37,298 bases of DNA from a virus: positions 1 to 37,298 of the IMG/VR virus record IMGVR_UViG_3300018080_000348; one strand, written 5' to 3'. The translations under genes were made by a program, and so were the position numbers. Position 1 is the stretch's first letter, and each line of letters starts with the position of its first letter. Below are positions 3,075-25,437 of this stretch, one piece after another. The notes beneath the pieces are model-generated. The model was not told where the DNA came from. It saw nothing but the letters and a program-made list of their open reading frames with translations, and did not search any database.

Positions 3075-4551
3075 AGGAACAATTTTCGATCTATATGATG
3101 AGGCTGGTAAAGAAGAGAGGCAGAAAACAAAAAAAAGGCGCCCCAAAACAGCTCAAGCTATTAGAGAAGTTGGTTTAGGTATGGCACAAGGTGCTGGGGA
3201 CATAGTTCAAATGGCTGGGATGTTAGAGGGTGCCATACAAGCCCCCTTAACATATGGATTGCTCAGTGAAGAACAGAGAAAAGAAACACAACTACCAGGG
3301 GAGAAAGCGAGGACTCAAATGCTTTTTGATCCTGATATTACTGAGAGCCAGTTTGCTGCTTTAGCTGTCGATGACGATCTTATTCCTCCTACTCAATTGC
3401 CCGGTGGTCGTACTGCTCTTGGGGAGGCGTTAGAAGAAATTCCAGAAGAAGGAACACTTCAAGAAATCGTCAGAAGAGGGACTCGTACATTGGCGTTTGC
3501 ACCAGCTGGAGCAGCTGCTATGGCTGAGATGGGGACTAGAGAGTTAATGGGTTTAGGAGGGAAGAAAATTGCTGAAAATCTTGGTTTAGGAGAAACAGCT
3601 CAAACACTTTTTGATGTAGGGTTTAGTCTTACTCCAGTCCCAAAAAAATTTATTAAAGGTGGTTCTGCTATTATCAAAATGGCTGAACAAGGAAAATTTA
3701 CCACTCAGAAACAAATGGTAGATACAGCAAAAAAATTAGGAATGACAGAACAGGAAATAGCACCACTTGTTAGAGAAGGATGGTTTGCAGATATCCTACG
3801 TAAAATTTCTCCTCGAAGGGGTGGAACTGAAAAAGCGCTGCATGCAACAAAAGCCGGAGTTGGTAGAGCGTTTGAGACAATCCGAGAGTCAGATATTGCA
3901 AGAAACGCTTTGACTAAGGGTTCAAGAGGCGCTTTTATTAAAAATTTAGAATCTGGGTTAGCTGATTTGTCTACAGGAGCTAAAGATGCGATTGCCGGTG
4001 ATTTAGCGGATTTAATGAATAGTAAAATGACTGGTCGAGATTTGATGGTTTTCTGGGATAAAATCAACGACTACTGGAAACAATATCCCAAACTTGGAAA
4101 GCTAAAAGGTTCTCTTAAAAAAGCACTGGGTTCTATTTCTCCCGAGTTATCTTCTGATTTTGAAATGGCCAATACTTTATCTCAAAGATTCCGTGATGTG
4201 GCATCAAAGCTAAAACCTAATGTGGCAACTGATATTGCTGGCCTTGGAGAAGTTGGTGTTGTCTTTAGCTCTCTTTTAAAGGGTGGTTTACCAGTATTAA
4301 TGAAAACAGCTCCTTATAGCCTTGGAATTCCAGCCGCAAGAAAATTAGCGCAGTTGATGTCAACGAGCGCTAGATTTCAAAACCTTCATAAGAAAATGAT
4401 CACTACTGTAAATGCTGGACAGGTTAAAGCTACAAAGAAAATTTTAGATCAGATGGTTGGGATGATTCAAAAAGAATCCCCAGAAACAGCGGCAGAGCTG
4501 CAAAAGATTACCATGGAAGACCTAGAAGAAATGCTTAAGGGAGCGGATTAA
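3061..4551 (+). CDS. Probable internal virion/ejection protein B
   Basis: This 496-residue protein overlaps the previous gene by 14 bases. It has a basic segment near residue 20 (KKRRPK), Gly/Ala-rich amphipathic stretches at about 130-200 (LAFAPAGAAAMAEMG and a following GLGGKK) and near 395-425 (VGVVFSSLLKGGLPVLM), and a charged helical C-terminus. Weakly hydrophobic glycine-rich helices of this sort are common in ejection proteins that enter the cell envelope. I see no lytic transglycosylase or protease motif. It is the last gene of the virion block; a 340-base stretch with an opposed small gene follows. Confidence 0.75.
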   Translation: MQAPEGTIFDLYDEAGKEERQKTKKRRPKTAQAIREVGLGMAQGAGDIVQMAGMLEGAIQAPLTYGLLSEEQRKETQLPGEKARTQMLFDPDITESQFAALAVDDDLIPPTQLPGGRTALGEALEEIPEEGTLQEIVRRGTRTLAFAPAGAAAMAEMGTRELMGLGGKKIAENLGLGETAQTLFDVGFSLTPVPKKFIKGGSAIIKMAEQGKFTTQKQMVDTAKKLGMTEQEIAPLVREGWFADILRKISPRRGGTEKALHATKAGVGRAFETIRESDIARNALTKGSRGAFIKNLESGLADLSTGAKDAIAGDLADLMNSKMTGRDLMVFWDKINDYWKQYPKLGKLKGSLKKALGSISPELSSDFEMANTLSQRFRDVASKLKPNVATDIAGLGEVGVVFSSLLKGGLPVLMKTAPYSLGIPAARKLAQLMSTSARFQNLHKKMITTVNAGQVKATKKILDQMVGMIQKESPETAAELQKITMEDLEEMLKGAD

Positions 4552-17788: not shown

Positions 17789-17917
17789 GAGCTTCTGCTC
17801 GTTTCAGATTCACCCATAATCTAACATGATGTTGCTTTTTCACACAAGAAAAAAAACAGGATGATGAAAAAAAATCAAATTGGTAAGATTACACAGCTAA
17901 ATAACAAGGAGATAAAC
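17789..17917. promoter_or_regulatory. Divergent regulatory region with palindrome
   Basis: This segment separates the minus recombination operon from the plus Cro-like gene. It contains the perfect 11-base palindrome AACATGATGTT (17823-17833). On the minus strand TTGTGT and TAGATT, 18 bases apart, flank it as possible -35 and -10 boxes. An operator bound by the neighbouring regulator is the natural guess. The plus-strand promoter is not clear. Confidence 0.45.
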
Positions 17918-18202
17918 ATGAAGCTTAGAGACTGGCTAATCGATAGAAGAATCACACAAAAACAATTCGCTAGTGCTGTTGGAGTTACACGCTGTCATCT
18001 TAGTAGTGTAATGAGCGGCTTTAAACCAGCAGGAAAAAAGCTAGCCAAAAGCATAGAGGTTGCAACCCATGGAAATATAACATCTGATGATATTCTGTCA
18101 GGCAGGGCAATAGGGTATGAAGGAAAAAAAAGAAAGGTGAGCTTTATAAAAAATTCTTCCAGCAATAATTTTAGTTCTCAAAAAAGATTTAGTCTTCTAT
18201 AA
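17918..18202 (+). CDS. Cro/XRE-like helix-turn-helix regulator
   Basis: The protein has 94 residues from the ATG at 17918, chosen because AAGGAG lies 6 bases upstream; the frame is open further (to 17861) but without a ribosome site. The HTH reads ITQKQFASAVGVTRCHLSSV at residues 12-31, close to the Cro/C1 pattern, followed by a helix and a basic Ser-rich tail. It faces the recombination operon across a palindrome, the arrangement of a phage genetic switch. No matching larger CI-like repressor is seen, so this may control early genes in a simpler way. Confidence 0.8.
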   Translation: MKLRDWLIDRRITQKQFASAVGVTRCHLSSVMSGFKPAGKKLAKSIEVATHGNITSDDILSGRAIGYEGKKRKVSFIKNSSSNNFSSQKRFSLL

Positions 18203-18215
18203 AGATTCTGTAAAG

Positions 18216-18279
18216 GGTTTCCGTGGGGAAAAAGAGCAGTTCCCCGCACCACCGAGAAACTGCCACTACACACGGAACC
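18216..18279 (+). ncRNA. Structured leader segment with GCACCAC and box (copy 4)
   Basis: GGTTTCCGTG (18216-18225) can pair with CACGGAACC (18271-18279) with a single bulge. The enclosed part can form GGGAA/TTCCC (18226-18230 with 18240-18244) or, alternatively, GCAGTT/AACTGC (18236-18241 with 18258-18263). GCACCAC is at 18246-18252. The ACACACGGA box (18268-18276) forms part of the closing helix. No start codon follows closely, unlike the other copies. Confidence 0.45.
18268..18276 (+). repeat. ACACACGGA box, copy 3
   Basis: Exact 9-mer in a non-coding segment without a nearby ATG, which argues that the conserved word is more than a ribosome site. Confidence 0.55.
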
Positions 18280-18320
18280 ACTACGACTGACTGTCGCAGA
18301 CGGTTAGAAACCACAACACC

Positions 18321-18367
18321 AAAAAAAAGAACTCTCCCTCATCCATGAGTGGGTCATCCGCTTTTTT
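18321..18367 (+). terminator. Possible terminator after the Cro-like gene
   Basis: An A-run (18321-18328) and a T-run (18362-18367) flank an imperfect hairpin built on CTCAT-cc-ATGAG (18339-18350) with further pairs outside one mismatch. It could stop transcripts from either side. The rest of the roughly 300 bases before the leader ORF shows no gene; an AGGAGG at 18461-18466 has no ORF close behind it. Confidence 0.4.
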
Positions 18368-18498
18368 CGTGTCAGTGGCTGAAGGCAGCATATAAAACTG
18401 CGTGATTTAGCGCAACCATAAAAAAGGACTTAATGGTTTCATTAAAAAAACCCACTCAACCAGGAGGGAAGAGCGGGCCTACATAGGAGGTACCCTCA

Positions 18499-18570
18499 AT
18501 GTACCTAGTTCAGAAGATATCAGATTTAACGAATAAAAAGCAACCTCTAAACACTGGAGGTGCAAAATGA
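18499..18570 (+). CDS. 23-codon leader ORF coupled to the replication gene
   Basis: The ATG at 18499 follows a strong AGGAGG (18485-18490) and the ORF encodes MYLVQKISDLTNKKQPLNTG plus GAK. Its TGA overlaps the next ATG (ATGA). AGGTAC (18488-18493) and GTACCT (18501-18506) can form a hairpin around the leader start. ACCTC (18543-18547) pairs with GAGGT (18557-18561), the ribosome site of the downstream gene. A ribosome translating the leader would open that second hairpin. The peptide itself probably has no separate function. Confidence 0.5.
   Translation: MYLVQKISDLTNKKQPLNTGGAK
18543..18561 (+). promoter_or_regulatory. Hairpin masking the ribosome site of the replication gene
   Basis: ACCTC (18543-18547) and GAGGT (18557-18561) are perfectly complementary across a 9-base loop; GGAGG (18556-18560) is the SD for the ATG at 18567. 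The 5' arm lies in the leader ORF, so leader translation should expose the site. Confidence 0.45.
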
Positions 18571-19529
18571 CAATCATTCGAACCTTACATAACAGAGAAA
18601 ATCCATATGTGATGATCAATAAAAAAGCCACCGAAGACTCAAATCTGTCGCTTCGAGCTCTTGGATTATGGGTTAAGTGCATAGCAAAGCCTGATAATTG
18701 GACATTCCGAATAGATAAAATGATAGCTGAAAGTAAGGAAGGAAGAGACGCGGTCAAGAACACAATCAAAGAGCTTATAGAAAACGGATATTGCTTCAAG
18801 GTCCAAACCACAGAAAGAGATGAAAGCGGGAAAATATTATTCGGAAAAACCGAATACGTAATCTTGGAGTTCAAGGCTAATAAAGAAGAGGTGGAAATCC
18901 TAAAAAAACAGTTTGAAGAAGCGCTGGCAGAAGAAGGAAAAGGTGTTGTTAAAAAAAACGTTCCGTTTACTGACATTCCGTTAACGGAAGTTTCAGCAAC
19001 GGAAAAACGGCCCCTAATAATTAATAATGATAAACAAGTAATAAAAGAACAACTACCCGACCAGCAAAACGACCCACCAGAACCACAATCTAAAGTCGAA
19101 TCAAAAAAAGTAGTGGTAGTTCCTTCTCTTTGTCTAGAATTAGGAGCGACAGAAGACAGCTATCGACGATTACTCAAACTTTTCCCTGAAAAACAAATAC
19201 TTAAAGCCTGCGAAGTTGCTAAGAGCCAAGACACAATCCCTGAAAACTTCTTCGGCTGGATAAGAGACTGCATTACATACGAGTGGGAGCCTAAAGCTTC
19301 AGGAGAAGAGCAAGAAGCGCATAATAAAAAAATCTTACATGAGTGTTTTGGTCAGCTAGACGGAAAGGAAAGATGGGGGCGGAAAATAACCATCGGACCC
19401 AACTACATTGAATTTCTCATCGGAGGGGTTCACAACAAGATGGAAATTTTCAAAACAAACGAAGATTCATTTGAGTTTAGGGTGAGAAAACATATTAAAA
19501 TGCTTCAGGATGGACACAACTGTGCCTAG
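18567..19529 (+). CDS. Winged-helix replication-initiator-like protein
   Basis: This 320-residue protein has an N-terminal winged helix at about 10-80 (ATEDSNLSLRALGLWVKCIA, then a recognition-like helix DAVKNTIKELIENGY), as in phage replication proteins with a helix-turn-helix front end. After a Pro/Gln-rich linker (about 150-175), residues 180-245 form a helical domain (LLKLFPEKQILKACEVAK, FFGWIRDCITYEW). A mixed C-terminal extension follows. It heads the early plus-strand block that includes RusA. As no polymerase or helicase is encoded, it probably recruits host replication proteins to an origin, perhaps within its own gene; this is inferred. Confidence 0.65.
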   Translation: MTIIRTLHNRENPYVMINKKATEDSNLSLRALGLWVKCIAKPDNWTFRIDKMIAESKEGRDAVKNTIKELIENGYCFKVQTTERDESGKILFGKTEYVILEFKANKEEVEILKKQFEEALAEEGKGVVKKNVPFTDIPLTEVSATEKRPLIINNDKQVIKEQLPDQQNDPPEPQSKVESKKVVVVPSLCLELGATEDSYRRLLKLFPEKQILKACEVAKSQDTIPENFFGWIRDCITYEWEPKASGEEQEAHNKKILHECFGQLDGKERWGRKITIGPNYIEFLIGGVHNKMEIFKTNEDSFEFRVRKHIKMLQDGHNCA

Positions 19530-24921: not shown

Positions 24922-25437
24922 ATGATATCTTGGACATTGCAGAAGAGAAATATCAATGACCTAAAGAAATATGAAAGAAACCCAAGGAGATTAAGTGACA
25001 AAGAGCAAAGACACTTATCCGACTCACTCGATAGATATGGACTCATTGACAAGCCAATTGTTAACGAGGACAATACAATCATCGGGGGCCACCAGAGAGT
25101 CTCGGTTATGGCGGGGAAGGGAGCGTCGGAAATCACCTGTTGGATTCCTGATCGATACCTCGACGAGAAGGAAGTGGAAGAGCTTAATGTTCGTCTCAAT
25201 CGTAATACCGGCTCTTGGGATTATGATGTTCTGGCGAATGTTTATGATGTAGGCGACCTCCTTATGTGGGGTTTCGAAGAAGATGATTTAGGTCTTGGCA
25301 AGAATGAAAAGCCAAAGAAAGAACCCAAACCAGTAATTACTTTAGAGTTCTCTGACAAAGAAACTATGCTTGATTACCTTCAGAGATGTGAAGAAATAGC
25401 ACAGCAATCAGCAGCAAAAATGAAGGTGAGAGGATGA
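24922..25437 (+). CDS. ParB/Srx-fold protein of the packaging operon
   Basis: The protein has 171 residues. The N-terminal 80 residues match the ParB/sulfiredoxin-type domain: DLKKYERNPRRL, then LIDKPIVNEDNTIIGGHQR with the typical GGHQR loop, and VEELNVRLNRNTGSWDYDVL. Phages often carry this domain next to terminase genes, sometimes fused to a DNA methyltransferase; here no methyltransferase is attached or adjacent. A nuclease or CTP-linked role is possible. The gene heads the packaging operon and overlaps terS (ATGA). Confidence 0.8.
   Translation: MISWTLQKRNINDLKKYERNPRRLSDKEQRHLSDSLDRYGLIDKPIVNEDNTIIGGHQRVSVMAGKGASEITCWIPDRYLDEKEVEELNVRLNRNTGSWDYDVLANVYDVGDLLMWGFEEDDLGLGKNEKPKKEPKPVITLEFSDKETMLDYLQRCEEIAQQSAAKMKVRG

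Follow-up and report, generated by a model that had tools for sequence, protein, structure and literature searches.

The window, as the whole stretch of DNA analysed here is called, is an entire IMG/VR virus record of 37,298 bases. It derives from a tailed phage and encodes a portal (phrog_156), a terminase and a major head protein, together with RecE/RecT-like recombination genes, a RusA resolvase and one tRNA-Met. A ParB-like nuclease / methyltransferase-like protein (24922-25437) adjoins the terminase genes. No close isolated phage was found: megablast returned no match, and all portal matches were below 60% identity. Relatives of the window RecT occur in two phage-sized contigs binned in Chlamydiota MAGs (L079, JAAKFB010000001.1; L081, JAGRNW010000004.1) and in one Verrucomicrobia contig, which weakly indicates that the host may lie within the Chlamydiota/Verrucomicrobia superphylum.

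The genes are ordered as leftward recombination genes, a Cro-like gene, a 296-nt gap, a leader ORF and a replication gene. The Cro-like repressor gene (17861-18202, plus strand; probable start 17918) matches the transcriptional repressor families phrog_35 and phrog_1468. The replication gene (18567-19529, plus strand) encodes a 320-aa DnaD-like helix-turn-helix protein that matches families of replication-initiation and DnaD-like proteins (phrog_11718, 3.7e-17; phrog_4707, 4e-11; phrog_186, 4.1e-11) and, by tblastn, phage initiators. Its AlphaFold2 model has a mean pLDDT of 71.8; the fold matches are weak, with none at E <0.001, and the best are winged-helix regulators and the Gram-positive primosome proteins DnaB/DnaD. 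The product is probably an initiator or helicase loader, and a control acting on a gene of this family would bear on copy number or the onset of replication.

The leader ORF (18499-18570, plus strand) comprises 23 codons from an ATG at 18499 to a TGA at 18568-18570 and encodes the peptide MYLVQKISDLTNKKQPLNTGGAK. Its Shine-Dalgarno sequence, AGGAGGT (18485-18491), lies 8 nt upstream of the start codon, and its stop shares an ATGA with the initiator start at 18567. All of this agrees with a preliminary description of the locus. When the upstream region was dinucleotide-shuffled 5000 times with ATGA appended, the overlapping TGA closed an ORF with an ATG start and at least 15 codons in 8.2% of shuffles, and one that also had a Shine-Dalgarno match of at least 6 nt in 0.14%. 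The same description had seen a layout of translational coupling or attenuation. Transcriptional attenuation is not supported: the leader ORF has no codon run for one amino acid, the sign of transcription attenuation, and a strict scan detected no plus-strand terminator, while a loose scan gave one weak match (18347-18363).

Predicted structure at the two ribosome sites

The initiator Shine-Dalgarno sequence, GGAGGTG (18556-18562, plus strand), falls within a hairpin at the end of the leader ORF (18540-18563). In this hairpin ACCTCT (18543-18548) pairs with GGAGGT (18556-18561), and the stem is lengthened by GC/GC to a total of -11.1 kcal/mol. The segment 18536-18570 has a z of -4.28, with 0/200 shuffles as stable, which bears out the proposal that ACCTC in the last third of the leader pairs with GAGGT of the ribosome site. 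By partition function the unpaired probability of the initiator Shine-Dalgarno sequence is 0.003. Ranked by accessibility among 42 gene starts checked in the window, the initiator site is the second least accessible and the leader start the fourth least. The initiator site is thus predicted to be sequestered by a structure that translation of the leader would open.

A second hairpin, of AGGTAC with GTACCT, had been proposed at the leader start. The inverted repeat exists and is exact (18488-18493 and 18501-18506), but it is not the preferred fold. The lowest-energy structure over the leader Shine-Dalgarno sequence and start codon (18480-18503, plus strand) pairs UACAU with AUGUA and GAGG with CCUC instead; this region alone is as stable as its shuffles (z -0.32). 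The leader-start hairpin was found in the window only and was rejected as a conserved feature.

Recurrence among related phages

Relatives were gathered from IMG/VR by a portal search (69 loci) and a RecT search (44 loci), and from GTDB genomes (4). Searched by sequence in IMG/VR, the initiator itself has a single close relative, L003, at 36-39% identity. The leaders of the relatives were located by their position upstream of the first replication gene, not by sequence. Including the window, the start of a replication gene is visible in 12 phages, and in eight of them a short ORF led by a Shine-Dalgarno sequence ends in an exact ATGA or GTGA overlap. These eight are the window, L086 (28 codons), L087 (44), L088 (32), L091 (63-91), L093 (33, GTGA), L123 (45) and L079 (16 or 115). 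The Shine-Dalgarno sequence of the replication gene is sequestered in all eight, although these counts are not independent because the phages are related.

At 8 of 11 replication genes the Shine-Dalgarno sequence has an unpaired probability below 0.25, whereas the median at 277 other starts is 0.50 (Mann-Whitney p 4.9e-5). The values outside the window are 0.004 (L087), 0.01 (L086), 0.05 (L091), 0.12 (L093), 0.17 (L079), 0.21 (L123 and L088), 0.36 (L097), 0.40 (L003) and 0.51 (L006). The hairpins responsible are unrelated in sequence from phage to phage and have their 5' arms within the leader; the stem of L087 reaches 17 bp. In L086, L093, L123 and L079 the local folds are near those of shuffles (z -0.6 to -1.7). 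When 139 starts lacking a long gene upstream were scanned without bias, the five exact 4-nt leader overlaps found all lay at replication genes (Fisher p 1.1e-6).

The arrangement is not universal in the group. It is absent from L006 and L103, and the overlaps in L097 and L082 are of 17 and 11 nt rather than 4. L003, which has the closest initiator, lacks part of it, with a 42-codon ORF, a weak Shine-Dalgarno sequence, an ATGA overlap and a partly open initiator site. In L065 (about 1900-2160), and in the same region of L123, several similar short ORFs stand in tandem upstream of the initiator, each with a Shine-Dalgarno sequence, as though by duplication of the leader.

Leader peptides of 23-91 residues showed no similarity when compared among the phages. 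Their sole shared ending is GGAK or similar, where the Shine-Dalgarno sequence encodes those residues. What recurs of the leader frame is thus its position and overlap (8/12), not its peptide sequence; since the peptides are not conserved, it is the Shine-Dalgarno sequence and the overlap that point to leader translation. At least three initiator types follow the leaders, namely Phage_rep_O-like (L079, L086), HTH_36 (L087, L091, L093, L123) and the phrog_11718-like type of the window. In L088 the ORF behind the leader has only 106 codons; it is unclassified and not confirmed as an initiator. Different initiator types are also seen at one place behind the same control region when L082 is added to L079, L086, L087, L091, L093, L123 and the window. 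With unrelated peptides and differing initiators, position and structure are what has been kept. Selection on structure and frame position, and not on sequence, would be expected to leave such a pattern.

Two simpler explanations bear on these counts. The leader ORF could encode a functional micropeptide, with the overlap reflecting ordinary operon packing. Four-nucleotide gene overlaps are common in phage operons and are seen at further genes in the relatives of the window, and the leader Shine-Dalgarno sequence is strong. However, the dissimilarity of the peptides and the enrichment of sequestered sites at these particular starts make this explanation very unlikely. It is just as improbable that the ORF and hairpin arose by chance and have no function, with the initiator expressed independently. 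About 25% of the remaining starts at these loci do have a Shine-Dalgarno unpaired probability below 0.3, but a chance origin accounts poorly for ORF, exact overlap and hairpin recurring together.

Probable translational coupling of the initiator to the leader

The ORF, the overlap, the hairpin and their recurrence, all of which were computed, make it likely that the leader acts as a translational-coupling switch in which a ribosome unfolds the hairpin over the initiator site. On the transcript running from cro to the initiator, the initiator Shine-Dalgarno sequence would be locked in a hairpin, with the last codons of the leader forming the 5' arm. A ribosome loading at the strong leader site would translate through this hairpin and melt it, and would then halt at the leader stop codon UGA, which overlaps the initiator AUG. 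The same ribosome could restart at that AUG, or the opened site could be used by another. Because the leader ribosome would both unfold the hairpin and finish on the initiator start, initiator synthesis would be tied to leader translation, and the peptide itself is probably unimportant. From the computed features we infer leader translation, hairpin melting, coupling and any influence that these have on copy number or on when replication begins. The gating of the initiator site by leader translation, as predicted in the preliminary description, gains support from the recurrence of exact overlaps and sequestered sites with unrelated peptides and different initiators.

In plasmid copy-number control, gating by a leader peptide together with an opposite-strand RNA is a textbook mechanism. 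The mechanism is ordinary in kind, but its conservation as a module at phage replication genes was not expected, and to our knowledge this combination has not been described as a conserved module ahead of the replication initiators of tailed phages. If it works as proposed, a phage could use it to meter the initiator, which is rate-limiting, once it has infected its host, and phages and plasmids would have converged in the control of their replication. The control cassette would also outlive the gene that it controls, as the leader, hairpin and overlap persist while the initiator types behind them vary.

The opening of Shine-Dalgarno hairpins by upstream translation, and reinitiation, are documented mechanisms of coupling (PMC12548453). 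The proposed switch resembles the MS2 lysis gene and rpmI-rplT, where RNA is likewise unfolded by upstream translation (PMC12548453). In contrast to those systems, the upstream ORF in the window is a dedicated short leader, unconserved in sequence, which precedes several initiator types.

An opposite-strand RNA element after cro

A conserved RNA element lies directly after cro on the minus strand (18229-18305). Read leftward, a hairpin and a linker close to YGYGUGUAG are followed by another hairpin, whose loop carries GUGGU, and by a U tract. In the window the linker UCCGUGUGUAGU, the terminator hairpin with its GUGGUG loop and the U tract occupy 18229-18276, identified by covariance match, covariation and G-U pairs. 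The other hairpin, on the 5' side of the same element, was recognised by sequence and fold (18276-18305). A covariance model (R2) built from four contigs matched eight beyond these at E up to 0.03, including the window (20.7 bits, E 0.007-0.03). The match in L103 has an E of 0.095, and L082 has a diverged copy recognised by eye. In total the element is present in the window, L003, L006, L079, L086, L087, L088, L091, L093, L097, L103, L123 and L125. An exact-pattern scan of all IMG/VR retrieved four contigs only, all of this phage group. The element also offers a searchable signature of the group.

Across 12 contigs, in an alignment fitted to the model and so favouring pair counts, 96.4% of cells are paired standardly and 10 of the 12 pairs show two-sided changes. 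The covariation score is 0.794, against 0.245 in shuffles and 0.05-0.24 in slid controls. The element was assigned to the minus strand because, read on this strand, it has 14 G-U pairs against 1 A-C. The nut sites of lambda and the put sites of HK022 are RNA structures of the rightward transcript, downstream of cro. A nut/put-like antiterminator was rejected for the window, as the stems pair properly on the minus strand only and end in U tracts. No Rfam family was found in the element and leader region up to E 5, and the element may possibly represent a new family of phage small RNAs.

The element could be a plain intrinsic terminator that keeps leftward transcription from reaching cro and has no part in initiator control, in which case the leader coupling may still hold. 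The minus-strand hairpin with its U tract fits this function, as does a promoter search that found nothing above shuffles. A plain terminator has no need of a conserved linker and loop sequence, yet these are kept among phages whose Cro proteins share only 31-43% identity. On balance a plain terminator is a realistic possibility, if not quite a probable one.

The other explanation adds to the coupling rather than replacing it, by taking the opposite-strand RNA as antisense in function. By pairing with the transcript from cro to the initiator it would reduce either translation of the leader or the integrity of that transcript, and with it initiator output, as part of a full circuit like that of plasmid R1. 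In addition to the covariation and the strand assignment, the conservation of the unpaired linker YGYGUGUAG and of the GUGGU loop favours such a role. Furthermore, a second minus-strand terminator lies upstream of the linker in 6 of 13 contigs, at 98-118 nt in five (L091, L093, L097, L123, L125) and at 78 nt in L003, and no equivalents occur on the other strand. Two framing terminators on the same strand at a near-constant distance suggest a separate small transcription unit.

The order of features is that of R1 copB-copA-tap-repA (PMC5717011) and of IncI RNAI-repB-repA (PMC10286972). However, the element does not overlie the leader but is situated about 110-320 nt upstream. Its loop pairs with the leader region of the same phage no better than with those of other phages (mean -10.17 kcal/mol for both), and its linker does so slightly less well (-10.58 kcal/mol cognate, -11.00 non-cognate). 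A pseudoknot or trans pairing of loop or linker with the leader was rejected on these grounds. As no promoter is detectable, antisense control is offered here as a hypothesis, and the complete R1-like circuit appears doubtful.

In plasmid R1, CopA acts on RepA through Tap, and initiator translation is coupled to that of the leader (PMC5717011). R1 and other IncFII plasmids share with the window a repressor gene, an intergenic opposite-strand RNA (in the window a predicted one), a short leader ORF and an initiator in this sequence (PMC5717011). Unlike R1, the window is a phage with unrelated proteins, an exact ATGA overlap and a Shine-Dalgarno hairpin inside the leader. In R1 the antisense RNA controls the leader start directly, whereas in the window the opposite-strand RNA, whose expression is predicted, lies apart from it. 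In plasmids of the IncI complex, leader translation is needed for initiator expression and the antisense RNA lies upstream (PMC10286972). The window resembles these plasmids, including ColIb-P9 repY-repZ, in having a leader ORF before the initiator and a predicted opposite-strand RNA upstream, but the activating pseudoknot was not identified in it. Asano and Mizobuchi reportedly described in 1998 a structure over the initiator Shine-Dalgarno sequence in repY-repZ. No homology was found between the initiators or RNA of the window and plasmid RepA/RepZ or their control RNAs, the protein matches being to phage families and the Rfam search empty.

In position the element recalls lambda OOP, a short leftward RNA between cro and O that carries a terminator of its own (PMC5869508). 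Both are leftward, end in a terminator and lie between cro and a replication gene, but OOP overlaps the end of cII, whereas the element abuts cro and cII was not recognised in the window. The lambda annotation also has no short leader ORF overlapping O. Membership of the element among the OOP or the R1/IncI antisense RNAs is at most hypothetical. More speculatively, Cro, a new family of antisense RNA, the leader and the Shine-Dalgarno hairpin might form a plasmid-like copy-number cassette that stayed fixed while initiators were swapped, in uncultured phages that possibly infect Chlamydiota. In L003 a 152-aa ORF (3366-3824) with a GIY-YIG-like start (GYVYGIF...LYIGQTKNIEARM) lies between cro and the initiator.
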